Positions 16,206 through 29,530 of a stretch of DNA of 49,470 nt are shown here, piece after piece. The stretch spans positions 1-49,470 of the forward strand of contig JAJDNV010000270.1 of the NCBI GenBank assembly GCA_022340545.1, written 5' to 3'. The notes under the pieces are model-generated. The model did no database searches, was not told where the DNA came from, and saw only the letters and a program-made list of their open reading frames with translations. Source of the DNA: Acidobacteriota bacterium. Its GTDB lineage: Bacteria > Acidobacteriota > Vicinamibacteria > Fen-336. The position numbers and the translations under genes were made by a program. Position 1 is the first letter of the stretch. Each line of letters opens with the position of its first letter.

Positions 16206-18544
16206 CCCCGGCGCCTCACCGGCCCGGCGGCCGCCCAGGCAGTCAGCCCGACGAGAACGGACAGCCCGGTGAGCACCAGCCCCGGCCACAGCCCCGGCGG
16301 GTCGTAACGAAGGAGAACGTCGTGCTCCCCCGCGGGCACCGGCACCGCGCGGTGCTTCCCGTTGGCCCGGACCACCGGGACCTCGGCGTCGTCCACCCAC
16401 GCGCGCCATCCCCGGGCGAAGCTGGCCCGCACCACGAGGTAGCCGGTCCCGTCGGCTTCGACCCGGTAGCGCTCGGCGCCGGGGACGGCCGCGATCCGGC
16501 GGGCCCGGCCCACCCGGCAGTCGGCCCGCGGTCCCTTTTCGAGACCCACGTCGCGCGTGCCGTCAAAGCCGTCACGGTACGGGACCCCAAGCGCCATCTC
16601 ACCCACGGGTGCCGGCACCACGCGGCAGGCGATGTGGGCCCGCGGCCAGGGGCGGGCGAGCCGATAGACATGGAGAGCCAGGCCCGGCGGGCCCGCGGGC
16701 ACCGTGGCCATCTCCTCGAGCTCGGGATCGACCAGGGGGTCGAGGCTCACCACCCGGCTCACCGCGGCGTTGCGCAGCCACGGGAGCAGCCGGGCCACGG
16801 CTTCCGGCGCGTAGTTGTCCGGCCCCAGCTCCCGCGCCCGCGGAACGAAGGACGTCAGGTCCTTCGCCTCAGGTGTCTCCACCCGGTCGATGATGTTGCT
16901 GTAGGGCGCGAGGACCTGTCGGCTGAGAAAGGTCCCGGCCAGCGTGAGCCTCGGGCCCCCGCGCGCGAGAAACGCACCGAATGCCGGGCTGTGATCGAGT
17001 CCGTACGAGAAGACTCGCTGTCCTTCCAGGTCGTCGAGATGCAGCGCCGTCATCTCCGGGAGCGGGTCGAAGAACGAGGCCCGGGTCTGTGGGTTGAGCC
17101 CGGCCCCGGCCCGAACCAGATCGCCGACGGCCAGCGCCGACGCGAGGGCGGTGGCCAGCCCGAGAGCCAGCCGCCCCCGCCGCACCGCGACCGCAAGCCC
17201 GCCACACACCGCCGCGGCAAGGACCACAAACGCCGCGTCCCTCGCCACGACCTCGGTGAGCCGTGGCCAGAAGTCGTTTTCGACGCCCGTCCAGGACACG
17301 AAGCTCGGTGTTGGGGCCGTGAACACTGCAGCCAGAGCGATCGCGAGAGCCGCCCCGGCGCCGGTTCCGGCCGCGAGCCAGGTCCACGACTTCGGCTCCC
17401 GTCGAAGCCGGTCGACACCAAACGCGCCGGCGATGGCGATCGCCAGGTAGGGGAGCAGTACCGCCTTGCTCGGAAAGCGGAAGGCCTCGGCCAGTGGCAA
17501 GTGGGCCAGGAGCGGGGCCAGCCCCCCCCACTCTCCCAGCGCATACCACAGGCCGAGCCCCCCGAGCGCGAGGAGCACGACGCGCGTCGCGCGGGCCATG
17601 GCCACGAACCCGAGTCCGGCGAAGGCCAGGGCGACGGGCCCGACGTACAGGCTCAAGAAGTAGGGCAGACCCTTGCTGAAGAACCGCCCGCCCCACCACG
17701 CCTCCGCCGGGGCCTGGGGGACACCGAAGAGGTTCGGCAGCAGCGTCTGCAACAGAACCGCCGGGTGCACCGCGTTCCCGAGGCGGACGTCGGGCGCGAA
17801 GCCGGCCCCGCGCACGGTCTCCGGCAGCAACCCCAGCGTGAGGGCCAGCGGCAGGCCGGCCAGGCCGATCCCCAGCCCCCCGGCACCGAGGAGACGCAGC
17901 CCGGCCCTGCGCCGGGATCCATCGCTCATGCCGAGGAGCACCCCCAGGACCGCCGCCTGCCCCACGAACTCGACGGCAAGGGTCGAGAGACCGAGGGCCA
18001 GAACCGCCCCCGCAACCACCATGCTCCGACCACCTTCCCGGGCGGCCCGGCGCAGGAGCCCGGCGATGAAGGGGGCGAGGGCCAGCGCCTGCAGGAAAAC
18101 GTACAGGTTCAGGGTCGACAGGGCGAAGCCCCCGAGGGCGTAGACTGCCCCGCCCACGAACGCCCCTTCCCGGGAGGCGCCGAGCTCGCGGGCGAGCCAC
18201 CAGGCCCCGAGAGCCGCCAGCGGAAGGTGGAGGGTCAGCAGCCACGAGACGAACACCGGGTCCGGCCACAGCGCATGCAGCAGGTCGGGGGGGTAGAGCG
18301 CAGGGGTCTGGAAGGAACCCTCAAAGATGAAGGGGTTCCAGACCGGGAAGCGCCCCTCGCGGATCTCGCGCGCGGCGAAGAGCCGGAGGGGATAGAAGGT
18401 CGCGGTGAAGTCGCGGAAATAGTACGTTCGGAGGGGAAGGCCCGCGGCCAGGTCCGGCAGGAGGGCGACGGGAACGAGCAGGGCGGCAAGCCAGCGACCC
18501 CACCCCCGCTTGGACGAGGAGGGCGGGGAGGGCACGCGGGTCAC
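16202..18544 (-). CDS. YfhO-type large membrane protein
   Basis: The protein has 780 residues and a GTG start at 18544 that overlaps the accC stop (GTGA). It has about twelve membrane helices in the first two thirds, then a periplasmic part. The N-terminal loop has [14 protein letters not shown] followed by [13 protein letters not shown], and the C-terminal end has [15 protein letters not shown] and [15 protein letters not shown]. This pattern is typical of YfhO/DUF-type proteins, some of which take part in lipoteichoic acid or envelope glycosylation in Firmicutes. The role here is unknown. Its tail-to-head overlap with accC places it, the methyltransferase and the GT-C-like gene in the accBC transcript. 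Confidence 0.8.
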
Positions 18545-19902
18545 GAAGCCGCGGTCGCCTTCTTCGGGGCCAGGAAGCGCTCCATGAAGCGGGTGTCGAA
18601 TGTCCCCGCCACGAAGTCGGCATCGTCGAGAATCCGCCGGTGGAGGTCGATGTTGGTCTTGATGCCCTCCACCACCATCATCTCGAGACAGCGCCGCATC
18701 CGGGCGATCGTCTCCGCCCGGTCACGCCCGTGCGTCATGAGCTTGGCGATCATGCTGTCGTAGTACGGCGAGATGGCACAGCCCTCGTGCGCAAACGTGT
18801 CGACTCGCACACCAGGCCCTCCCGGCTGGTGGAAGTGCTCGATCGTCCCCGGGGACGGCACGAACGTGACGGGATCCTCCGCGTTGATGCGGCACTCGAG
18901 CGCGTGCCCTTCGAAACGGACCGCCTTCTGGCTGAAGGACAGCGGCTCCCCCGCCGCCACGTGGATCTGCTCCTTGACGAGGTCGCGGCCGGTCACGAGC
19001 TCGGTGACCCCGTGCTCGACCTGTATGCGCGTGTTCATCTCCATGAAGTAGAAGCTGCCGTCGTCGTCGAGGAGGAACTCGATGGTGCCCGCATTCGCGT
19101 ATTGCACCGCCGCGGCCGCCTCGACCGCCGTCCTTCCCATCTTCTTGCGCAGCCGTGGGCTCAACACCGTCGAGGGAGCCTCCTCGATGATCTTCTGGTG
19201 GCGGCGCTGGATCGAGCACTCGCGCTCCCCAAGGTGCACGACGTTGCCCTTGCTGTCCGCCATCACCTGCACCTCGATGTGCCGCGGGCCCTCGACGTAC
19301 CTCTCGATGTAGACGTCCGGCACCCCGAAGCCGGCCTGGGCCTCCGCCTGCGCCGCCCGGAAGGCCTGGGCGAGGTCACCGGGACTGCGCACGATCCGCA
19401 TGCCTCGCCCCCCCCCTCCGGCCGAGGCCTTGAGGATGACGGGGAACCCGATGTCACGGGCGACCCGGACCGCCTTCTCTTCGTCTTCCACGACGCCGTT
19501 CGAGCCCGGCACCACCGGGACACCCGCCTTCATCATGGCCTTCTTGGCCCGGCTCTTGTCGCCCATCAGCCGGATGGCCTGCGGACCGGGGCCGATGAAC
19601 TTCAGGTTGCACGCCTCGCAGATCTCGGCCAGGTATGCGGACTCGGAGAGAAAGCCGTACCCGGGGTGGATGGCATCCGCCCCGGTGATCTCCGCTGCGC
19701 TGATGATCGCGGGGATGTTGAGGTACGAGTCGATGTTTCGCGGGGGTCCGATGCACACCGCCTCGTCGGCGAAGCGGACGTGGAGGCTGTTCGCGTCCGC
19801 CTCGGAGTACACGGCCACGGTCTTGACCCCGAGCTCCTTGCACGCCCAGAGGACGCGGAGCGCGATCTCCCCGCGGTTGGCGATCAGGATCTTCTTGAAC
19901 AT
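18541..19902 (-). CDS. accC: Biotin carboxylase subunit of acetyl-CoA carboxylase
   Basis: AccC carboxylates biotin on AccB using ATP and bicarbonate, the first step of fatty acid synthesis. The protein has 453 residues from ATG 19902, the usual length. Motifs are [17 protein letters not shown] at the N-terminus, HPGYGFLSE near residue 85, the ATP-grasp Gly-rich loop [12 protein letters not shown] near 160, [15 protein letters not shown] and [11 protein letters not shown] near 288-298. It follows accB by 28 bases and ends overlapping the YfhO-like gene. AccA and AccD are not in the window. Confidence 0.97.
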
Positions 19903-19930
19903 CGTCCCCGGAGCGCGTCTCCGCCCGTGG

Positions 19931-20446
19931 TCAGGCGGGTCGAACCGTGAAGAGGGGATCCCCGTACTGCACGGGCTGTCCGTTCTCGGCGTGGATCTTC
20001 ACGATCTCGCCGGCCACCTCAGCCTCGATCTCGTTCATGAGCTTCATGGCTTCGATGATGCAGAGGACCTGCCCGACCTGCACTCGATCGCCGACGTTCA
20101 CAAAGGGCGGCGAGTTCGGGTCCGGGGCGCGATAGAAGGTCCCGACAATGGGGCTGGGCACCGGGGAATCGCCGTTCGCCTCGGACTCTTCCGCCGCTTC
20201 CTCCGACATCGCGTCCCCGATCGCGGCGGCTCCGGCGGCGGGCCCGCCCACCGCTCCGGCGACTGGAGCCGGAGGAGCCGGGCTCGGTGGGGCCGCGAGG
20301 ACGCTCCCCGGCGGCGCGGGGGGAGCGGGTACCGGCGGGCTCGAGCGGCAGACGCGCAGCTTGACTCCGTCGTGCTCGAGCTCGAACTCCGTGATCTCTT
20401 GCTCCTCCAGGATCCGGAGAATGTCCTTGAGCTCGGAAAGATCCAC
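19931..20446 (-). CDS. accB: Biotin carboxyl carrier protein of acetyl-CoA carboxylase
   Basis: The protein has 171 residues and a GTG start at 20446. The N-terminal part ([20 protein letters not shown]) is the AccB dimer-type helix. It is followed by a Pro/Ala-rich linker (residues 45-90) and the biotinyl domain. Lys in [11 protein letters not shown] near residue 136 is the biotin attachment site. AccB carries the carboxyl group between AccC and the carboxyltransferase. A well-matched promoter lies about 45 bases upstream, so accBC is transcribed apart from the pilus-linked genes upstream. Confidence 0.96.
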
Positions 20447-20490
20447 GCGGTCTCCTTGGGGGCCCTGCGGCCGTATCTCGAAAGGCAGCT

Positions 20491-20519
20491 ATTATTTGCG
20501 CCGTCCGGGACCTTGTCAA
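20491..20519 (-). promoter_or_regulatory. Sigma-70 promoter for accBC
   Basis: On the minus strand, a perfect TTGACA (20519-20514) and AATAAT (20496-20491, five of six) are separated by 17 bases. It is the best sigma-70 match seen in the window. Transcription would begin near 20484, giving a leader of about 38 bases before accB. Confidence 0.7.
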
Positions 20520-20558
20520 GGATCGGGCTCGCGGCGGGCGGCTCGGTCCGCGCCGGTC

Positions 20559-20921
20559 CTACTCGAACTCCTCGCGCAGGCTCAGGCCGGCGAGCCGCAG
20601 GGCAAAGCGCGCCCGCCCGATGACGGCACCGGGGCTGAGCGCGGCGAACAGGAAGTACTCGGGCGTGATGGCCACGAGAAGGGTCGTCATCCGGTCCGTC
20701 ACGACCGCCAGCTCTTGCAGCCCCCCCAGGCCGGTGTCTCCGGCCGTCGACAGGCTGGCCCGCAGCAGGGTCGTGTGCTCCGCGGCCACCGCCTCCAGGT
20801 CCGGGGCGGGGCGGACGGCGAGCTTGTCGATGGGAATGCCGTCGGTGCCGATCACCATGAGCACCTCGACCTCCGGCACCCGGCTGGCGATCTGCTTCAA
20901 GGCCTCCCCGAAGCTGGCCAT
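20559..20921 (-). CDS. Roadblock/LC7-domain protein
   Basis: A single-domain protein of 120 residues from ATG 20921, three bases after the TPR gene stop. The fold is suggested by FGEALKQIASRVPEVEVLMVIGTDGIPI, a central GLGGLQELAVVTD and the end LFAALSPGAVIGRARFALR, all typical of roadblock/LC7 proteins. Known relatives include MglB, which acts on the Ras-like MglA to set pilus polarity in Myxococcus. No small GTPase gene is visible here. Its place at the end of the pil-linked run suggests a pilus or motility role, as an inference. It ends about 40 bases before the accBC promoter. Confidence 0.8.
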   Translation of the reverse strand: MASFGEALKQIASRVPEVEVLMVIGTDGIPIDKLAVRPAPDLEAVAAEHTTLLRASLSTAGDTGLGGLQELAVVTDRMTTLLVAITPEYFLFAALSPGAVIGRARFALRLAGLSLREEFE

Positions 20922-20924
20922 CCC

Positions 20925-22454
20925 CTACCTCCCCTGCACGATGGCCAAAAGGGCCTCGAGGCGTGCAATGGTGCGCTCGAGGACGCGGCGCCGCGACGCG
21001 CGCCCGTCAACTTCGGCCGGCGGCCGGGTCGGCCCCCCGCTGACTGACGCCTCCGCCTCGGCCTGGATCTCGGCCAGCCGGGCTCGTGCGGCCTCGTTGC
21101 CGGGCTCCCCCGCGATGACCTCCCGGTAGACCGCGATCGCCCGGTCGAGCAGCCCCTGCTGGAAGTACAGCTCCGCGAGGGTTCCCGAGGAGAGCGGCTT
21201 CCCCGTCTTGTCGGCCGGCTCCAGCGAGGCCGTCGCGGGGACTGGCGCCGGGGGCGTCCCTTCGGCCGGCGGCTCGACCACCGACGGCCGCTCGGTCGCG
21301 AGCAGGGACGGTTCGGCCTCGGGAGGCTCGCGCGGGGCCGCCTCCGGTGCGGGCAGCTCCACCGCCGGAGGCGGGGAGTCGGCGAGCGGCGGCGCAGCCT
21401 CCGGCGTGGGCGGTGGCGGCTCCGGCGTGGCGGCTGGCGGCTCCGGCGAGGCCGACGGCGGCGGTTCGGGTGCGGCCGGCCCCTCCCCGTCGACACCCGC
21501 CTCTTCGCGGGCGCCGGTGACGGCCGCCCCTCCCTCTGCCTCCAGGCCCGCGGGAGTCGTCACGCTGCCGGGCGGCACCGTCGGTGGGAGGGATTCGTCG
21601 ATAGCCGCGTACTCTGCCGCCCTCGAGGACGGCAGCGTTGGCGCGAGGTCGCTGTCCGGTGGAGGCTTCGCCTCCCCGGCTCCCCCCCGGCCCGGAAGCG
21701 TGCCCGGCAGGCCCTCCTCAGCGCCCCGGGTTCGCGCTGGCAGCGTCGACTCTTCCTTCGAGGGTTCGCCCGCCGGCGCTCGCCCCCCTTCCGCCGGCGG
21801 CGCCGTCTCTCTCGACGCGAGGGCCCGCTCGGTCGGCGGTGGCATCGGCGCCCGCACACCCCCCCCGGGGTCTCCCGGCATGCGAATGCGGATCGTCGGC
21901 GGGAGCCCCGGCTCCTCCGCGCCTGCTCCCGCGGGCGGAGGCGGCGGCGCGTCCTGCCGCCTGACCGCCTTCATGGGCTTCGTGAGGTCCGCGCTCCGCC
22001 CTTCCGATGCACGCGCATCGTCCGCGCCTTCTCCCCCCTTGGCTGGCGCCCCCAGCCGCTCCTGAATGGCCTGAATCCGGGCCTCCACGTGTCGGTCGGA
22101 CGGTGCCATCTCCAGCGTCTTGCGGTACTGGAGCACGGCGCCCCCGAGATCGCCCAGTGTCTCCAGGGCTTCTCCCAGCAGCCGGCTCGCGAGGATGTTG
22201 TCGGGTGCCCCCTTGACCGCGGCGTCCAGCTCGGTGCGGGCCGCCGCGGGATCTCCGGAGTCGAGGAGGGCGCGGCCGAGGGTCAGCCGCGCCGAGGGGT
22301 AGTCCGGATGGCGCTGGAGACCGGCCCGGGCGACGCCGATCGCCTCCTCGAGCTCCCCTTCCTTCCGGAGCTGCTCGGCCAGCTGAGCGAACAGGCGGGA
22401 TTCCGGATCACGCTCGATCCGACGCCGGAGCTCCTCGATTCGGCTGTCAGCCAC
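20925..22454 (-). CDS. TPR protein with long Pro/Ala/Glu-rich linker
   Basis: The protein has 509 residues from GTG 22454. Residues 1-135 form TPR-like helices (LFAQLAEQLRKEGELEEAIGV, SARLTLGRALLDSGDPAAAR). Residues 140-420 are low-complexity, rich in Pro, Ala and Glu, and probably disordered. A second TPR-like unit follows (LAELYFQQGLLDRAIAVYREV near 430), then a short coiled-coil end (ERTIARLEALLAIV). No signal peptide is visible, so it is probably cytoplasmic. It is three bases from the roadblock gene and 52 bases from the upstream lipoprotein gene. It may be a scaffold for pilus or motility proteins. Function is not established. Confidence 0.8.
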   Translation of the reverse strand: MADSRIEELRRRIERDPESRLFAQLAEQLRKEGELEEAIGVARAGLQRHPDYPSARLTLGRALLDSGDPAAARTELDAAVKGAPDNILASRLLGEALETLGDLGGAVLQYRKTLEMAPSDRHVEARIQAIQERLGAPAKGGEGADDARASEGRSADLTKPMKAVRRQDAPPPPPAGAGAEEPGLPPTIRIRMPGDPGGGVRAPMPPPTERALASRETAPPAEGGRAPAGEPSKEESTLPARTRGAEEGLPGTLPGRGGAGEAKPPPDSDLAPTLPSSRAAEYAAIDESLPPTVPPGSVTTPAGLEAEGGAAVTGAREEAGVDGEGPAAPEPPPSASPEPPAATPEPPPPTPEAAPPLADSPPPAVELPAPEAAPREPPEAEPSLLATERPSVVEPPAEGTPPAPVPATASLEPADKTGKPLSSGTLAELYFQQGLLDRAIAVYREVIAGEPGNEAARARLAEIQAEAEASVSGGPTRPPAEVDGRASRRRVLERTIARLEALLAIVQGR

Positions 22455-22506
22455 GGTGCCTCGAGAGGTCTGGGGTCCCCACCCGTGGCCCGGGTCCCCT
22501 AGTGCC

Positions 22507-22986
22507 TCACCGCTGGATGATCTCGATCGTGCTCAGGTAGTCGCGTGCGGCATCGAAGCCGTAGGCCCGGACGCCAATCGTGGCCGTGGTGATCGCCGTT
22601 CCCGCCACGTAGATGACGCTCGCCGAGCCGTCCTCGGCGGTCGCCATCACGAGACCCGTCTGCACCGGCCCGACGTACGTGGATACCGCGGCCGGCATCA
22701 TCGTCCCGTCGCCCGTCAGCAGCTCGAACAGAACCGCACGCCCCGACGCCGCCGCGCCGGTCTGGTCCCGCAGGACCAGTCGGATCTCAGCCGAGGTCAC
22801 GCCGTCGGCGTTGATGGTGTCTGGAAGCGCAACGAGGTCCGCGGAGAGGCCGGTCTCCGAAGGGCCATTGAGCGCGGGCGGGTCGTCCTTGTCGAGGGCG
22901 CAACCCGGCAGCAAGAAGATCAGGCCCACCGAGAGCACGGCGGCCGCCACCGAGCCGGGGTGCCTTCCAAGAGTCGCAACTCGCAT
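22507..22986 (-). CDS. Lipoprotein with Ig-like (Big-type) domain
   Basis: The protein has 159 residues from ATG 22986. A GTG one codon earlier is equally possible behind the GAGGAG site. The signal peptide ends in the lipobox LLPGC near residue 28, predicting a lipid-anchored envelope protein. The rest looks like a bacterial Ig-like domain: ALPDTINADGVTSAEIRLVL, the GRAVLFELLTGDG segment and SASVIYVAGTAI. Such domains are common in adhesive or structural surface proteins. It lies 20 bases downstream of another lipoprotein gene in the pil run. Not assigned to a named family. Confidence 0.75.
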   Translation of the reverse strand: MRVATLGRHPGSVAAAVLSVGLIFLLPGCALDKDDPPALNGPSETGLSADLVALPDTINADGVTSAEIRLVLRDQTGAAASGRAVLFELLTGDGTMMPAAVSTYVGPVQTGLVMATAEDGSASVIYVAGTAITTATIGVRAYGFDAARDYLSTIEIIQR

Positions 22987-23006
22987 CACCGGTTTCTCCT
23001 CGTTCC

Positions 23007-23591
23007 CTAGGTACCCGGGCAGGTCTCGTTGCTGTCGCCGTAGTTCGCGAAGTCGATCTGCATGCTCCCGCTGCCGGTGACGGTGTCACCCGACACGGTC
23101 TGACCGGAGATCGTGATCGTCGCGAACATGGTCACAACGTCGTACCCCGTAATGTTGCTGAGGGGCGGCTCCAGCTTGGCCTGTCGCCTCACGACCTCGA
23201 TCGGCACCTCGGTGGTCCCCGAGGTCGCCACGTCGACCGCCGTCGAGAGCACTCCCACGATCGTGTGGGGGACGTCCTGGTTCTCTGCGCCGCGACCATC
23301 GGACCTGGTGTACTTGACCTCGTACCGCTGGACCAGGACCGCCCCCGGGACCCGTGGCGCTTCTGCGTTCGGGTTCTTGTTCCGGACGGCGAGCGAGACG
23401 AGCACGGTGTCCGGGCAGATGACGTTGCTGTTCTCCCCGTTCCGCACGTCCGAGTCCAGAACCTCCCCGTCGTTGATCGCGGCAACGACCAGCAGAACCG
23501 AGGCCTGACTGCCCGTCACGTAGTCGGCGGTGTCGCACCCGCTGAGCGCGAAGGCCATCGCCACCGCCACTGTAGCGCCAATCATCCTCAT
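23007..23591 (-). CDS. Lipoprotein of unknown function downstream of pilQ
   Basis: The protein has 194 residues from ATG 23591, preceded by AGGGGAGGG. The signal sequence MRMIGATVAVAMAFALSGC gives a clear lipobox with Cys at residue 19. The mature part looks beta-rich (VEVKYT-like strands, PIEVVRRQAKLEPPL, TMFATITISGQTVSG) and has two further Cys, one in VICP and one in NETCPGT at the end, which might form a disulfide. No named family was recognised. It lies 56 bases after pilQ and 20 bases before a second lipoprotein. It may help place or brace the pilus secretin, as pilotin-like proteins do, but that is inference from position. Confidence 0.75.
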   Translation of the reverse strand: MRMIGATVAVAMAFALSGCDTADYVTGSQASVLLVVAAINDGEVLDSDVRNGENSNVICPDTVLVSLAVRNKNPNAEAPRVPGAVLVQRYEVKYTRSDGRGAENQDVPHTIVGVLSTAVDVATSGTTEVPIEVVRRQAKLEPPLSNITGYDVVTMFATITISGQTVSGDTVTGSGSMQIDFANYGDSNETCPGT

Positions 23592-23647
23592 CGGGCGCCC
23601 TCCCCTGAGTGTGTTGAGCCTGGAGGTCCTCATAGCTCCTCTCACCT

Positions 23648-26071
23648 CTACGATTTGACGATGCGTGGCGTGATGAACAGCAGCAGCTCGTTGTTCTGGC
23701 TGCTGACGGCCTTGTTCTTGAACAGGTACCCGAGTAGCGGGATCTTGCTCAGGAACGGCGTCTGGTTGACGGTCGTGTTCTCGGTGCTCTGGTAGATGCC
23801 GCCGACCACCGCCGTCTGGCCATCCGTGACCTGGACGATGGTTCTCGCCGACTGTGTGTTGATCGGCGGTATCCCGTTGACCAGGTTCGCGAAATCGGCC
23901 GAGTTGTTCTCGACCTCCAGCTGCAGGATCACCGTGCCCGCGTCCGTGATCTGCGGGGTGACACGCAGGGTCAGCACCGCATCCTTGAACTGCACCGTGA
24001 CGGTGTTGTTGGCGACCGTCTGAATCGGGATCTGGAGACCCTGCTTGATCTCGGCCGCCTGGTTGTTCTGGGTCGTGACCTTCGGAGTCGAGAGCAGGCG
24101 GCCGCGGCCCTGTCGCTCGAGCGCGGTCAATGCGAGGTCGAGGTTGAAGCTGCCGAGGATGTTCCCGGTCGAGATCCCGAGGGCGCTGTTGAAGCCATTG
24201 GCCGGGAGGTTCACCGCGTAGCCGCGCCCGATCGTCCCGATGCCGGCGTCGGACGAGAGGCCTCCGGGCCCGAGGTTGTCGGCGGGCAGTCCGAGCGTGC
24301 TCGGCACCCCGCTGCCGTTCAGGATGATCTGGTTGGGCCAGGACTGGTTCGTGGTGTTCCCGTAGCGCGTCGAGTTCTCCTTGCTGAAGCCCCACTGGAT
24401 GCCGAGGTCGCGCGTGAAGTTGCGGGACGTCACGACGATGCGGGCCTCGATCTCCACCTGGGGTGTCGCGGTGTCGAGCTCGGCGATGAGAGCCCTGGCC
24501 TTGTCAATGAACGACGGAAGGTCTCGGATGATGATGGTGTTCGTCCGCTCGTCGATGTTGAGCTGGCCCCTCTGCGACAGGGCTCCGGCCTGACGGAGGA
24601 CCCCGCCGAGCGTGGTCGCCTTGGCGTACGAGATACGCTTCGTGTAGTCGGCCAGCTCACCGGCGAGGGCCTTGGCCTCGGCCAGCTTGCGGCGATCCTC
24701 CTCCTCGCGCTCCAGTTCCGAGAGGGACGCGATGCGGATCACGTTCCCCTCGAGAACGCACCCAAGGGCGTTCGTCTTCAGGATCAGCTCGAGCGCACGA
24801 CCCCAGGGCACCTCGTTCAGCACCAGGGTGACCTTCCCGGACACGCCGGGGTTGACCACGACGTTCAGGCCCGAGATGTCGGCGAACAACCGGAAGATGT
24901 CCTGGAGATCCCCGTCCTTGAAGTCGAGGCTGATCGGTGTCCCCAGGTTACCGGTTACGCCGCAGGCGGTCCCGATGGCGTCGTCCTCCGGCATCGGCGG
25001 CATGTCCGGGGGCACCTCGTCGGCGGGCATCTGCGGCTCCTGGAGCGGCGGCAGGGCCAGCGGCTCGAGGGCGATCGGGCGGGGCGCAGCCTCGGCCACC
25101 ATGGGAAGGGGCTCGGCCGGCTCCGCGGGCTCCGGGCTGCGCAGCGCGGCCATCGGGGCATGCGCCGGCGGCTGGGGCTCGCCCTCCTCTCCGAAGAGGA
25201 TGCGAATCGTGTCCGCCCCCTCGACGATCCGGTAGGGCGTCTTCTCGGTCAGGTCGACGACGAGGCGGGCCACCTTGGGGGAGGCCGCACTGAACTGGCC
25301 CAGACGGACCCGGCTGACCGGGCCCTGGTCCACGTCCATGGACCGGAACGCGGGGCTCGCGGTGACGTCCGCGAAGTCGACGACGACCCGGTCGGGACCG
25401 GGAAGGGTGAAGTCCTGGTACTTGAGGCGTCCGTCGGCCTTGATGGTGAACGACGGCAGATCGCCGCTGCCCTCCTCTTGCGCCACCGCGACGATGCGGG
25501 TGGCCCGGGGACCGTCGGGGATCTCCGCCGGGGCCGACACCTCCGCCGGGGCCGGGGCCGCGCTGGGTGGGGCTGGCTCGGGGACGGAGGCCACGACCGG
25601 AGTGGCCGGGGCGGGTGCCGCCGGCTCGGGTTCGGGCCGGGGCTCGGGCGCCGGCGGGGCTGTGGCCGCGGCCGATCGCTCGAAGACGAGGGTCAGGTCC
25701 CTGTCCTTCGAGAAGATCTGGTAGGGCACCAGGCTGGCCAGGCGCACCTCGAGGCGCGCCAGGCTGCGGCCGTCGGCCCTTGCCAGGCTCGTGATGCGGA
25801 GGGACTCCACCTCACGGGTCCCCACGTCGATGCGTGCGGGGACCTGCGAGGCGTCCACCTCCGGGATGTCGACCACCAGCGTGAGCGCATCCGGGCTGTA
25901 GTACGTGTAGGCAAGCGGCCCCGTGCACTGGACGATCAGTCGCGTCGACTGCTCGTCACTCTCCTGGCGGATATCGGTGATCGTCGTCAGGGTCCCGTCC
26001 TGCGCGGGCACCGACGTCGCCAGCGCGAGGGCGGCCGCGATCAGGCAGACCCCAGCGAGCTTCACTCTCAT
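23648..26071 (-). CDS. pilQ: Type IV pilus secretin PilQ
   Basis: PilQ is the outer-membrane channel through which the type IV pilus passes. The 807-residue protein has a signal peptide (residues 1-23) and AMIN domains at about 30-120 and 200-290, which bind peptidoglycan. A Pro/Ala/Glu-rich linker follows, then a secretin N0/STN domain near 375-430 (LDFKDGDLQDIFRLFADISG), N1 repeats and the secretin domain from about 600 to 805. That last part includes TTQNNQAAEIKQG and the end KNKAVSSQNNELLLFITPRIV. The start ATG overlaps the pilP stop. It is the last of five pil genes in the usual order M-N-O-P-Q. Confidence 0.95.
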   Translation of the reverse strand: MRVKLAGVCLIAAALALATSVPAQDGTLTTITDIRQESDEQSTRLIVQCTGPLAYTYYSPDALTLVVDIPEVDASQVPARIDVGTREVESLRITSLARADGRSLARLEVRLASLVPYQIFSKDRDLTLVFERSAAATAPPAPEPRPEPEPAAPAPATPVVASVPEPAPPSAAPAPAEVSAPAEIPDGPRATRIVAVAQEEGSGDLPSFTIKADGRLKYQDFTLPGPDRVVVDFADVTASPAFRSMDVDQGPVSRVRLGQFSAASPKVARLVVDLTEKTPYRIVEGADTIRILFGEEGEPQPPAHAPMAALRSPEPAEPAEPLPMVAEAAPRPIALEPLALPPLQEPQMPADEVPPDMPPMPEDDAIGTACGVTGNLGTPISLDFKDGDLQDIFRLFADISGLNVVVNPGVSGKVTLVLNEVPWGRALELILKTNALGCVLEGNVIRIASLSELEREEEDRRKLAEAKALAGELADYTKRISYAKATTLGGVLRQAGALSQRGQLNIDERTNTIIIRDLPSFIDKARALIAELDTATPQVEIEARIVVTSRNFTRDLGIQWGFSKENSTRYGNTTNQSWPNQIILNGSGVPSTLGLPADNLGPGGLSSDAGIGTIGRGYAVNLPANGFNSALGISTGNILGSFNLDLALTALERQGRGRLLSTPKVTTQNNQAAEIKQGLQIPIQTVANNTVTVQFKDAVLTLRVTPQITDAGTVILQLEVENNSADFANLVNGIPPINTQSARTIVQVTDGQTAVVGGIYQSTENTTVNQTPFLSKIPLLGYLFKNKAVSSQNNELLLFITPRIVKS

Positions 26072-26652
26072 TGCCTCGCCTCCTCCGACGCATACAGACT
26101 CTTGCGGACCTCGCGCGACTTCACCGGCGACAGGGGATCCGTCACGTCCTGCCGGAAGGTCACGGAGGTGGCGTCCACGGCGGTGATCACACCGTCATAG
26201 AGCCGCTGCCCCGTCCTCACGAAGTACGACTTGCCGTCCGCACCGAGGAAGACGGCGATGAAGCCCGGCTGAGCGGCGACCCCGGTCCCGCCCCCGGCCG
26301 TCCTGACAACGCCCTTCAGTGCCACTTCCTGAATCAGGAACCCTTCCATCCCCGGCTTGCGCGTCTTGGGACCCCGGTCCGCGGCCACCGGGCGCTGGAG
26401 GCTCACGAAGGGGTCTCTTCGTCCCTGTGACTGATAGGTGTAGCCGCCCGTCTCCAACTCCACGTCGAGCGGCGGGCGCTCAACCGGTTCCGGCTCGGCC
26501 GCCGCTGGCGCGGCGCCGGTCTCTGCCGGTGCGGCCTCGGGAGCCGCCGCCCCCGCGGCCGGCTCCTGGGCCGCCGCCGGCCCCGGCGCCAGCCCGACCA
26601 GGCCCACCACGACCACCGCGAGCAGCAGGGTCCTCATGACGTGCCCCCTCAT
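26068..26652 (-). CDS. pilP: Type IV pilus inner-membrane lipoprotein-type PilP
   Basis: PilP links the PilN/PilO inner-membrane complex to PilQ. The protein has 194 residues, starting at ATG 26652 in overlap with the pilO stop. The N-terminus is a signal peptide ending AAAQE. No lipobox Cys is present, unlike many PilP proteins. After an Ala/Pro/Glu-rich linker come the family features GRRDPFVSLQ near residue 78, EGFLIQEVALKGVV near 102 and YFVRTGQRLYDGVI. The ATGA overlap with pilQ indicates coupled translation. Confidence 0.88.
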   Translation of the reverse strand: MRGHVMRTLLLAVVVVGLVGLAPGPAAAQEPAAGAAAPEAAPAETGAAPAAAEPEPVERPPLDVELETGGYTYQSQGRRDPFVSLQRPVAADRGPKTRKPGMEGFLIQEVALKGVVRTAGGGTGVAAQPGFIAVFLGADGKSYFVRTGQRLYDGVITAVDATSVTFRQDVTDPLSPVKSREVRKSLYASEEARQ

Positions 26653-27245
26653 CGCTGCGCCCCCGGCGCTCCGCCCTGGGGCGGTAGCTCCTGGTACACG
26701 TACGTCGTGGCCACCGCCGAGACGCTGATCGTGTTGTTGATAGTCTGCTCGCCGCGAGCCTTGATCTTGACGTTACCCATGTTGACCAGCCGCGACATGC
26801 GGCTGATGCGGTCGAAAAAGGCACCCAAGTTGTGGTAGGTCCCCTCGACGTCCACGTTGACGGGGACCTCGATGTAGAAGTCCCGCTGGGCGGTCGCAGC
26901 CGGGTTGAACCTCTTGATGGCGAGGCTGGACTGCGCCGCGAGATACTGCACGCGCCGCATGAGGTCCGGCATCTCCTTCTCCGGCGGGAGGATCCGCTTC
27001 AGCGTCTCGAGGCGCGCCTCGAGGGCCTGCACCTCCCGTTGGAACTCGGGCAGCCGATTCGCGGTTGCCTCGAGGGCGCGGATCTGCTTCTGAAGCTCGG
27101 CCAGCTGCTGCTCCTTCCGCTTCTGCTCCTCGAGGGCGTCCGAGTAGTAGAACCAGTAGAAGCCGCCGCAGATGATCGCGGCCACGAGGGCCGCCACTCC
27201 CAGCTGACCGGCGAGTGGAAGCTTCGCGAGGGCGTTGTCAGCCAT
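26649..27245 (-). CDS. pilO: Type IV pilus alignment protein PilO
   Basis: PilO forms an inner-membrane complex with PilN and PilP. The 198-residue protein has one N-terminal membrane helix (LGVAALVAAIICGGFYWFYY, residues 15-34). A coiled-coil follows (KRKEQQLAELQKQIRALEA), then the ferredoxin-like periplasmic domain (ILPPEKEMPDLMRRV, VNVDVEGTYHNLGAFFDRIS), which is typical of PilO. It starts at ATG 27245, 15 bases after the pilN stop, and ends overlapping pilP. Confidence 0.94.
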   Translation of the reverse strand: MADNALAKLPLAGQLGVAALVAAIICGGFYWFYYSDALEEQKRKEQQLAELQKQIRALEATANRLPEFQREVQALEARLETLKRILPPEKEMPDLMRRVQYLAAQSSLAIKRFNPAATAQRDFYIEVPVNVDVEGTYHNLGAFFDRISRMSRLVNMGNVKIKARGEQTINNTISVSAVATTYVYQELPPQGGAPGAQR

Positions 27246-27260
27246 TCCCGTTCTTCCTCC

Positions 27261-27896
27261 CTACCGCCCGCCCTGCGCGGGGGCCACTCCGGCGGCGGCG
27301 GCGGCCTCCGCGGCCGCTTTCTGCTTCGCCGCGACCTCGGGGTCGTTGAAGTTGCCTCGCAGGTTGAACGTCACGAGGGCGTTCGCCTCCTGGCTCGAGA
27401 CGAGCTCGACCACCGGGAACCACCCGCTGGTCTGGAGGGCACTGATGAAGTCGGCGACCGCGGCGAGGCTGTTGCTCTGCCCGCCGAAGACCACGCTCCC
27501 CCGCGTCTCGTCCATCTGGGTGAGCCACACGTAATCCGGGAGGGCCTGCGAGACCTCGTCCAGCATGTGGACCGGGCTCTTCTGCGCGGCCCGGAGCATC
27601 TCGATCACCGCGACCTTGTTCTCGAGGGTCGCCTTCTTCTGCTGAAAGGCCTTCACCTGCTGCTCGATCGCCTGCAGATCCTGGCGCCGCTTCGTGTCGG
27701 CGGCGATCCGGGTGTCGAGGTCCTTGATCTTGTTGCTCTGCAGCCACCAGGCGCCGGCGCAGAGCACCGCCGCCCCCCCGGCGAACAGGGCGAGGAGCAG
27801 GTAGCTCTGAAGCGTCCCCCCCGACGGAAGCGCCGGCCCACCGCCCGTCTTCTTCTTTGTCGCCCTCTCGGGCGCGAGGAGATTGACGCGGATCAT
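27261..27896 (-). CDS. pilN: Type IV pilus alignment protein PilN
   Basis: The protein has 211 residues and starts at ATG 27896, overlapping the pilM stop (ATGA). The N-terminal MIRVNLLAPE matches the short cytoplasmic motif that binds the groove of PilM. A membrane helix lies at about residues 31-50 (LLLALFAGGAAVLCAGAWWL). It is followed by coiled-coil and a PilN-type periplasmic domain (SPVHMLDEVSQALPDYVWLT). The C-terminal end is Ala-rich. Confidence 0.94.
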   Translation of the reverse strand: MIRVNLLAPERATKKKTGGGPALPSGGTLQSYLLLALFAGGAAVLCAGAWWLQSNKIKDLDTRIAADTKRRQDLQAIEQQVKAFQQKKATLENKVAVIEMLRAAQKSPVHMLDEVSQALPDYVWLTQMDETRGSVVFGGQSNSLAAVADFISALQTSGWFPVVELVSSQEANALVTFNLRGNFNDPEVAAKQKAAAEAAAAAGVAPAQGGR

Positions 27897-28960
27897 CGGT
27901 CACCCACCCTGCGCACGGCCAGGCCCACCGCGATCGCCGCCGAGGGCCCGATGTCGTCGAGAAAGTCCGGATCGAAGTCCTTCTCGTTGTAGCGCACGTT
28001 GAGGAAGGGGTTGAGCAGCTCGACCGGGGCATCCAGCCGGTCCCTCAGGAGGTCGCGCAGGCCGTGGACCTTGGCCGCCCCGCCGGAAAGGTAGATCTGA
28101 TCGACCCGGTCGTCCTGGCTGGTCGCCCGGAAGAAGTCGAACGTCCTCTGGATCTCGGTGGTGATGTTCTCGGAGACCGCCTGGAAGATCGAGACGAGGC
28201 TGTCGGGGGAGGCCCCATCGACCTGCTCCCCCTGCTTGAGGGCCTCCGCCTGCTCGAAAGAGAGGTTGAGGTCCTTCTGGATGGCGTCGGTATACTGGTT
28301 GCCGCCGACCGCGATATCGCGGTTGAAGACCGAGGAGCCGTCCCTGACCACGTTGACGTTCATGATGGAGGCGCCGATGTTGAGCAGCGCCACCGCCCGC
28401 CCGGGGTCGGGGACGTAGTTGACCTCGTAGCAGTTCTGAAGAGCGAAGACGTCGACGTCGACGATGATCGGGTTCCGTCCGGCCTGCGTGATCGCCGACG
28501 TGTACTCGCTGATCTTGTCCTTCTTCACCGCCACGAGGAGGACGTCCATGTTGCCGGCGGCCTCGCCGCCCTCGACCACCTCGTAGTCGAGCTGGACGTC
28601 CTGGATGTCGAACGGGATGTACTGCTCCGCCTCCCAGTGGATGGACTCGGCCAGCTCCTCCTCGCTCATCTGAGGCAGGCTGATCTTCTTGACGATGACG
28701 GCGTTGCCGGAAACCCCCGTTGCGCAGTCGGTCGTCTTGATCCGGTTGTCCTGGAACAGATTCTGGAGCGCGTCGATGACGGCGCCGGAGTCCATGATGG
28801 CGCCGTCGACGATCGCCTCGGGAGGCAGCCCCTCGAGGCCGATGTTCAGAAGCTGGTACTCGTCACCGCCTTTGCCGCCGACCTTGAGCTCCACTGCCTT
28901 GACAGCCGAAGAGCCGATGTCGACGCCGACCAGACCCTTCTTCGATCCGAAAAGACCCAC
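27893..28960 (-). CDS. pilM: Type IV pilus actin-like protein PilM
   Basis: PilM is a cytoplasmic actin-fold ATP-binding protein that joins the PilN tail. The 355-residue sequence begins at GTG 28960 behind a GGGAGAG site. ATP-fold motifs are GVDIGSSAVKAVELK at 13-27, IIVDVDVFALQNCYE near 175, LNIGASIMNVNVVRDG near 203 and the phosphate-2 loop QIYLSGGAAKVHGL near 295. The family signature EAEQYIPFDIQDVQLDY lies near 112. It is the first gene of the pil operon, with a promoter about 140 bases upstream. Confidence 0.96.
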   Translation of the reverse strand: MGLFGSKKGLVGVDIGSSAVKAVELKVGGKGGDEYQLLNIGLEGLPPEAIVDGAIMDSGAVIDALQNLFQDNRIKTTDCATGVSGNAVIVKKISLPQMSEEELAESIHWEAEQYIPFDIQDVQLDYEVVEGGEAAGNMDVLLVAVKKDKISEYTSAITQAGRNPIIVDVDVFALQNCYEVNYVPDPGRAVALLNIGASIMNVNVVRDGSSVFNRDIAVGGNQYTDAIQKDLNLSFEQAEALKQGEQVDGASPDSLVSIFQAVSENITTEIQRTFDFFRATSQDDRVDQIYLSGGAAKVHGLRDLLRDRLDAPVELLNPFLNVRYNEKDFDPDFLDDIGPSAAIAVGLAVRRVGDR

Positions 28961-28979
28961 GGGCGTCTCTCCCTCTAGT

Positions 28980-29020
28980 GAACCTGCTCGCTCCCGATGT
29001 CGTCAGCCGTTTCCAGGTTC
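28980..29020 (-). promoter_or_regulatory. Hairpin in the pilM leader
   Basis: GAACCTG (28980-28986) and CAGGTTC (29014-29020) form a 7-bp stem with a 27-base loop in the untranslated leader of pilM, just upstream of its ribosome site. No known riboswitch class was recognised. It may affect access to the ribosome site. Confidence 0.35.
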
Positions 29021-29096
29021 TCCGTCGCTTCCCGCGTCCGACCCTCAGAACTCAGTTTCAATCCACACTTATCAAAGATAGTTAAAGTTCCGCCTG

Positions 29097-29125
29097 AACG
29101 TACCATCGGCCCCAGACCATGTCAA
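29097..29125 (-). promoter_or_regulatory. Possible sigma-70 promoter for pilMNOPQ
   Basis: On the minus strand, a perfect TTGACA (29125-29120) and TACGTT (29102-29097, three of six) are spaced by 17 bases. The predicted start near 29090 gives a leader of about 130 bases to pilM, containing the hairpin at 28980-29020. No better pair was seen upstream. Confidence 0.5.
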
Positions 29126-29190
29126 GCCTTAACTGAGGATTCGGCACGTAAACCCCCGACAGCACTAGACCCCCGCCCACAGGCCCCCCA

Positions 29191-29230
29191 GGCCGCCTTC
29201 TGGCGGCCGGCCGGCCGCCTTCGGGCGGCC
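29191..29230. repeat. Two tandem hairpins with the same stem
   Basis: GGCCGCC-TTCT-GGCGGCC at 29191-29208 is followed by GGCCGCC-TTCG-GGCGGCC at 29213-29230. Both have the same 7-bp stem, and the second has a stable TTCG loop. No T-run follows on either strand, so these are not typical intrinsic terminators. They resemble REP-like elements. Confidence 0.6.
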
Positions 29231-29530
29231 CGCCGCCCCGCAGGCGAAAGGCCATTAACGGCCCGAATGGCCACGGAGGTAAGTGTCGGGTATCACAAAA
29301 CGTCGCAGAAGAGGCCAGTGATGCGAACGGACGCGACCACGCGTCCGGCCGAGCGTGAGTGGGGGTACAGGTGCCACGGCCACCAGGCCGCTCCGCCCGC
29401 GCTCTGCAGCTCCTGACGCCTACCGAAGAAAGAACGGAATACTCCGGGAACGTCGCTCCCCGCTGCGGTCCCAGAGTGGTTTGGGGTGGGGGGTCATAGA
29501 GCAGGTGCAGTTGGCCAACAGGCCTACACT

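Follow-up and report, generated by a model that had tools for sequence, protein, structure and literature searches.

What do four genes set directly behind the secretin gene pilQ add to a type IV pilus operon? The question is raised by the minus strand of contig JAJDNV010000270.1 from an Acidobacteriota bacterium (Vicinamibacteria, Fen-336; assembly GCA_022340545.1), where two lipoproteins, a tetratricopeptide repeat (TPR) protein and a roadblock/LC7 protein are encoded in succession. The whole contig, 49,470 nucleotides (nt) long, is called the window here, and it belongs to a genome of 5.04 Mb in 406 contigs with a completeness of 93.65%. We consider it probable, at about 0.6, that the roadblock protein serves the MglA polarity switch as an MglC-like adaptor, and that many Acidobacteriota have its gene incorporated into their type IV pilus operon. 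On our best reading, drawn by analogy with Myxococcus, this adaptor and an SgmX-like TPR linker encoded beside it would couple MglA/MglB to the pilus, and the lipoproteins would be separate accessories of PilQ.

A roadblock protein resembling MglC by sequence

The run from pilM to the roadblock gene is composed as follows (aa, amino acids; Ig, immunoglobulin).

27893-28960, minus strand: pilM (Pfam PilM_2 and NCBIfam PilM over cut-off)
27261-27896, minus strand: pilN (Pfam PilN over cut-off)
26649-27245, minus strand: pilO (Pfam PilO over cut-off)
26068-26652, minus strand: pilP (Pfam PilP at 19.0 bits, below the cut-off of 25.6)
23648-26071, minus strand: pilQ (Pfam Secretin and NCBIfam PilQ, both over cut-off)
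23007-23591, minus strand: first lipoprotein, 194 aa (predicted Ig-like beta-sandwich; no Pfam match)
22507-22986, minus strand: second, Ig-like lipoprotein (Big_1/invasin-like Ig domain; ATG start, with a GTG one codon earlier)
20925-22454, minus strand: TPR protein, 509 aa (several Pfam TPR models over cut-off)
20559-20921, minus strand: MglC-like roadblock/LC7 protein, 120 aa (Pfam Robl_LC7 at 30.1 bits; cut-off 23)

As a first-pass annotation of the DNA had stated, the last four genes follow pilQ on the same strand with short gaps (56, 20, 52 and 3 nt from pilQ through the roadblock gene). Conservation was followed in 60 relatives from the class, in 149 class genomes for the first-lipoprotein profile and in 396 Acidobacteriota genomes for the roadblock profile. 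The roadblock protein was found in 18 of the 60 relatives, and the order pilQ-lipoprotein-Ig-TPR-roadblock was complete in 13 of the 17 relatives' loci that carry it, the contig beginning within or just ahead of the TPR gene in the other four. The same order was also met on genome contigs retrieved with the lipoprotein profile.

By sequence, the roadblock protein resembles MglC of Myxococcus xanthus more than MglB. In this predatory bacterium, MglC has a part in selecting which end of the cell leads. A profile of 15 orthologues returned M. xanthus MglC as the best solved relative in the PDB (E 1.3e-18, 70 bits, near full length), and MglB was absent from the 14 PDB sequences found with it at E<=10; nor did BLASTP align the window protein, to which the aligned relatives are 38-80% identical, with the MglB of its own genome. 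The protein has the length of MglC (120 aa) and, as in MglC, its Robl_LC7 domain lacks the extensions that MglB has at both termini. Features shared with the M. xanthus structures (PDB 7ct3, 7cy1) include the D-G-I turn, G67, E71, G103, R106 and, at positions 104 and 110, a basic residue: all 15 rows agree with MglC at D26 (where one has E), G27, I28, G67, E71, G103 and R106, and the positions of K104 and R110 held K or R throughout, R106 being invariant. According to extracts of two papers (PMC10329633, PMC7949163; the sources cited below are likewise represented by extracts), FDI is the surface of MglC for MglB, and K104/R106/R110 is that for RomR.

One difference from M. xanthus mglC is the place of the window gene directly inside a pil run, beside a TPR gene. 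The tags of the M. xanthus counterparts are close in number, namely MXAN_5770 for the MglC of PDB 7CY1 (PMC11112851), MXAN_5772 for PilQ (PMC3222651) and MXAN_5766 for SgmX (PMC7519303). This suggests that the proximity of pilQ and mglC is older than Acidobacteriota, tag numbers alone not implying a shared operon.

Across the phylum, the roadblock profile, scored on part of each genome's first-look candidates, matched 150 of the 396 genomes, with 51 family labels. Forty loci were hand-picked from the 150 positive genomes, with family spread wanted and strong matches favoured. Pil genes were found at most 13 kb upstream on the same strand in 32 of them, a figure that covers the 40 chosen loci and not all 150 genomes (in family f38, one locus was read). 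Five further loci (L116, L119, L125, L135 and L136), four of them on short pieces, had accB or accC downstream. At 12 of the 40 the roadblock gene adjoins pilQ without a lipoprotein, Ig or TPR match. The first-pass annotation had proposed a test of co-occurrence with pilMNOPQ over many genomes: rather than lying away from pil genes in most relatives, the outcome it had named beforehand as counter-evidence, they are tied to pil in most relatives examined (the 32 of 40 chosen loci, and 99 of 105 lipoprotein placements described below).

The MglA switch and the TPR protein

An MglA-like GTPase encoded elsewhere had also been proposed as something to look for, and the genome holds MglA, MglB and a RomR-like protein. 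An Arf family search gave weak matches only, and the genome's own MglA then served as query. The mglB-mglA pair is separate and away from the pil locus; its MglB matches PDB MglB chains at E 5.6e-58 and keeps counterparts of R115 and K120 (part of its surface for MglC), the counterpart of K14 being Gln, when a numbering shift of one is assumed, as we read it. Five PilT-family genes over cut-off are present as well. The RomR-like protein, a 593-aa frame (L177), combines a receiver, a middle with 24% Pro and a Glu-rich C-terminal helix with one Trp and a nearby Pro; it is likened to RomR by domain layout and features, not by sequence comparison.

Within the class, strong MglA matches were found in 21 of the 60 relatives, and all 18 roadblock genomes were among those 21; the remaining 39 held no roadblock protein and a single marginal MglA match. 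The three genomes with MglA and no roadblock match may all reflect assembly gaps: in G010 the contig breaks off within the TPR gene, G005 has a partial PilQ match and none to the lipoprotein, and G015 has a weak PilQ match and likewise none to the lipoprotein. Of the 21 MglA genomes, 20 had a strong match (E<=7.1e-12) to the tail of the RomR-like protein. Moreover, at phylum level, 148 genomes had both roadblock and MglA, two had roadblock only (G443, G482), 116 had MglA only and 130 had neither (Fisher p 4e-32 with kinship ignored; four weak MglA matches, in G024, G061, G171 and G436 at E 3e-4 or weaker, were omitted).

Side observations concern further members of these families. Several of the seven MglA-like matches in the genome lie within reading frames of more than 500 codons and are possibly longer GTPase proteins. 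A third roadblock protein (L003:1477-1830) stands in the order TPR protein, roadblock, ftsY-like gene (the GTPase part recognised by eye), and a search found no significant PDB relative for it.

The TPR protein can be divided into four parts.

About 22053-22454, minus strand: N-terminal TPRs, residues 1-134, conserved
Between the N- and C-terminal repeats, minus strand: Pro-rich linker, variable
About 21057-21194, minus strand: C-terminal TPR 'TLAELYxxQG', residues 421-466
About 20928-21002, minus strand: conserved C-terminal segment with a predicted amphipathic look, by eye

The C-terminal repeat goes with the roadblock gene. A profile of this repeat, built from class members with a roadblock gene, scored at least 10.8 bits in 20 of 21 phylum TPR proteins beside a roadblock gene (18 of them at 22 bits or more; L143 failed) and at most 0.4 bits in eight of eight pil-linked TPR proteins from roadblock-free class members, which retain the N-terminal repeats and a short helix-like C-terminal end. 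The 21 were those of the 40 phylum loci with a usable TPR match and a roadblock gene; the eight came from 14 roadblock-free loci, four being left out as cut by contig ends (L048, L051, L072, L073) and two for a TPR match outside the pil run (L068, L075). This scoring superseded a count of the strict TLAELY pattern, present in 21 of 33 proteins with a roadblock gene beside or near and in 0 of 14 without, several of the 14 being cut by contig ends or not pil-linked. In SgmX, the TPRs of the N-terminal part serve to activate pili and those of the C-terminal part bind MglA (PMC11580455), so that a C-terminal repeat tracking the roadblock gene is as expected if the TPR protein works like SgmX. As a possible RomR-like acidic peptide, the motif FELE of the linker came into question; in the window it is degenerate.

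SgmX of M. xanthus and Bd2492 of Bdellovibrio are MglA-linked TPR proteins, and the window protein likewise has TPRs at both ends and a middle without a known domain, its C-terminal repeat going with the presence of MglA. It is likened to SgmX by layout, not by sequence, and is shorter and poorer in repeats (509 aa, few repeats, versus 1,060 aa). The gene for Bd2492 sits with tamAB (PMC3983030), whereas the window TPR gene sits with pil genes.

Elsewhere in the wider class the order is pilMNOPQ-lipoprotein-Ig-TPR-pepQ-accB-accC or a shorter form of it, with no roadblock match. Since MglA and the roadblock protein also occur in the wider phylum, a loss by the remaining members of the class would seem likelier than a gain elsewhere. 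At several of these loci (L055, L056, L065, L069 and others), a gene for a pepQ-like M24 peptidase occupies the roadblock slot between the TPR gene and accB; the pepQ-like name was given by eye from translations, and M24 is backed by Pfam for L128 only.

Two lipoproteins behind PilQ

The two lipoproteins follow PilQ rather than the switch. The first is 28-52% identical between the window and aligned relatives, and no substitution of its lipobox Cys19 occurs in an alignment of 14 rows, nor in a larger one of 31 rows, for which 17 of 31 new reading frames were taken (the rest were from the same genomes, near copies or very weak; nine frames without a clear start were unused). Its profile matched 104 of the 149 class genomes. 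When 105 of the 106 matches were placed against the PilQ matches listed (a second fragment in G052 was omitted), 99 stood directly behind PilQ on the same strand, 18-229 nt from the end of the PilQ match, and they did so with or without a roadblock gene. The other six are accounted for by PilQ on another contig (G003, G091, G058; in G003 a pilQ tail is visible at the contig start of the lipoprotein locus), by no PilQ among the matches listed (G043, G117) and by a second copy (G146).

Among the 60 relatives, the first lipoprotein was present in 41, and 24 of these had no roadblock match (in one, G010, the contig ends in the TPR gene). Because of these 24 genomes and the 12 phylum loci with a roadblock gene and no lipoprotein, the two are separable: the lipoproteins belong with PilQ and the roadblock protein with pil genes, each without the other.

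The first-pass annotation had suggested that the lipoproteins could be pilotin-like. It is indeed conceivable that they are pilotins bringing PilQ to the outer membrane, with the TPR protein and the roadblock protein aiding the same assembly; the position of the first beside pilQ and the invariant lipobox cysteines of both (in the second, 14 of 14 rows, with a lipobox LPGC unusual at -2) speak for it. Tgl and PilF are pilotins with a TPR fold. Like Tgl and PilF/PilW, the first lipoprotein is coded near or for the secretin, but it is predicted to be an all-beta sandwich (model pLDDT, the predicted local distance difference test, 87.1; predicted template modelling score, pTM, 0.79), not a TPR protein. 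It had no PDB sequence relative at E<=5 in a profile search, and no family in Pfam, NCBIfam or PHROGs beyond a weak NCBIfam ExtH match far below cut-off. Fold searches returned beta-sandwiches of a generic kind: the best E by Foldseek was 1.1e-3, and the highest Z, 9.6, belonged to a TRAP complex subunit, with pilus chaperones next. No pilotin was among the fold matches listed, which excludes nothing. The second lipoprotein has Big_1/PKD domains typical of surface proteins: Pfam Big_1 and Invasin_D3 match below their cut-offs, and of the 14 aligned rows 11 carry a C-terminal PKD domain, which the proteins of the window, L022 and L026 lack. Besides, no first-lipoprotein match was found in 24 of the 126 genomes with PilQ among the matches listed, some of them fragmented. 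A pilotin role is therefore doubtful, and by predicted fold neither protein is a pilotin of the Tgl/PilF kind; the lipoproteins could serve PilQ as an anchor or a cap, or could bind to the pilus on the cell surface.

Weighing a role in pilus polarity

Downstream of the roadblock gene lie the following features.

20491-20519, minus strand: promoter-like site TTGACA-17-AATAAT (11 of 12 consensus positions), between the roadblock gene and accB
19931-20446, minus strand: accB (NCBIfam BCCP over cut-off)
18541-19902, minus strand: accC (NCBIfam accC over cut-off)

The promoter-like site was the only one found on the minus strand from pilM to accB (0.3 expected from shuffles), none being found between pilQ and the roadblock gene in this pattern scan, and the minus strand of 19800-29400 yielded no terminator-like site. 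As the gaps are short and the lone promoter-like site sits behind the roadblock gene, the simplest reading of these sequence patterns is that one transcript runs from the pil genes to the roadblock gene inclusive and does not take in accBC; accBC may have a promoter of its own, from the site at 20491-20519. Downstream of the run, accB was found at 14 of 17 class loci (the contig ends before accB in the other three). In most class and phylum loci read, accB and accC stay downstream of the pil run, with no functional link evident, and despite this conserved place they are probably unrelated in function to the pil and roadblock genes.

Several lines of evidence weigh against an MglC-like adaptor dedicated to the pilus: i) MglC F25, S70, N75 and F102 are not conserved, the F25 position being T in 12 rows and M in three; ii) the predicted roadblock monomer (pLDDT 88.4, pTM 0.83, element order H-E-E-H-E-E-E-H) is closer to MglB and to eukaryotic and archaeal roadblocks (Z about 16-18; MglB 16.7-17.0) than to MglC (Z 14.2 over 111 residues, 2.3 A), in which helix 2 is tilted by 30-40 degrees compared with other roadblocks; iii) 116 MglA genomes are without a roadblock profile match, and therefore the adaptor is not needed wherever MglA occurs; iv) the class pattern of MglA and roadblock may amount to one or two events, since related genomes are not independent; v) of the 39 relatives without strong MglA, 12 had weak matches (E 2e-8 to 7e-4) to the RomR-like tail, and this tail is less sharply tied to MglA than the roadblock protein is; vi) three chosen loci (L124, L128, L141) have neither pil nor acc genes nearby, and f38, which makes up 32 of the 150 positives, has weaker scores, its one locus read (L124) being unlinked to pil; vii) the TPR link is not general, no TPR gene being detected at the 12 pilQ-roadblock loci, and TPR proteins are common, the likeness to SgmX resting on layout. 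Because of i) and ii) we call the protein MglC-like and not MglC. As to the unlinked loci, L128 carries TPR-roadblock-pepQ, a part of the same run, away from pil, and at L124 the weakly matching roadblock protein (L124:4201-4593) stands beside a nucleoside transporter and a DUF2752 protein.

Could the neighbourhood be a matter of descent only, the roadblock protein serving general MglA polarity (e.g., gliding or protein placement) next to an old pilQ neighbour, with no direct role in the pilus? The three loci under vi) fit such an account, as do accB and accC, equally conserved neighbours without an evident functional link, and M. xanthus MglC serves gliding and pilus motility both (PMC10329633). 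We judge it unlikely, given that the roadblock gene stays behind pilQ across many families, with or without lipoproteins and a TPR gene between them, and that the promoter-like site divides it from accB while none was found toward pilQ.

A second GTPase-activating protein (GAP), MglB-like and acting on another MglA-like GTPase of the genome, would suit the seven MglA-like matches and the good alignment of the monomer model to MglB structures (Z up to 17.0). The roadblock fold is indeed shared with MglB of M. xanthus and Thermus; however, MglC and not MglB was matched by sequence at E<=10, the genome has a separate MglB, and M. xanthus MglC is without GAP activity according to the extract of PMC10329633, all of which makes a second GAP quite improbable. 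That the four genes form one dedicated four-part module, as the first-pass annotation had it, is very hard to sustain: they are contiguous at the 13 class loci and cut by the contig start at the other four, but most first-lipoprotein genomes among the relatives have no roadblock match, 12 phylum loci have the roadblock gene next to pilQ without the other three, and by prediction two of the proteins lie beyond the inner membrane, the other two being cytoplasmic.

For the MglC-like adaptor we arrive at the following sequence of steps. It is put conditionally as regards all bindings, the pole, which partner controls which and what the lipoproteins do, each contact being modelled on Myxococcus. 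MglA, with its GAP MglB and the RomR-like response regulator (all encoded elsewhere), would mark a cell pole. A dimer of the MglC-like protein would join MglB to the RomR-like protein through the conserved D-I and basic surfaces. The SgmX-like TPR protein would sense the MglA/MglC side with its C-terminal repeat and act with its N-terminal repeats on the pilus machine at its cytoplasmic base; pili would thus be made or activated where the switch dictates. The two lipoproteins would form a separate layer, as envelope-side partners of the PilQ secretin or the pilus, kept also in bacteria without the switch. A further proposal is tentative, with the odds against it as it stands: that the operon encodes the MglA-pilus contact itself, as a TPR bridge with PilM/PilB at its N-terminal and MglA or the MglC-like dimer at its C-terminal end, that lineages losing MglA trimmed the switch-facing half, and that the lipoproteins are new PilQ-associated beta-sandwich pieces of the envelope.

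The suggestion of a pilus-polarity accessory in the first-pass annotation has accordingly gained genomic support for its polarity part, from MglA tracking and pil linkage, and not for a single four-gene module. Nor is the set outside all named systems, as had been thought, given that the roadblock protein resembles MglC and the TPR protein resembles SgmX in layout. Roadblock adaptors and TPR effectors of MglA are known kinds of protein; the variation seen here lies in the location of their genes, inside the pilus operon of many Acidobacteriota, in the pattern shared with the C-terminal TPR repeat and in the lipoprotein family tied to pilQ. A literature search over titles and the starts of abstracts, full texts including McLoon et al. 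2016 being outside its scope, found no naming of a pil-linked roadblock protein in Acidobacteriota.

In Myxococcus it is an unsettled question by what contact MglA and SgmX reach the pilus machine; direct contacts of SgmX with PilB or PilM were not detected (extract of PMC11580455). If the proposed reading is true, the contact between MglA and the pilus could be sought in a small gene-linked set, with switch-free lineages as a natural comparison. A testable role would also fall to genes that are at present annotated as hypothetical in this abundant soil phylum, and a lipoprotein family tied to pilQ is defined. The pilus operon of these bacteria would then carry part of its own steering gear.

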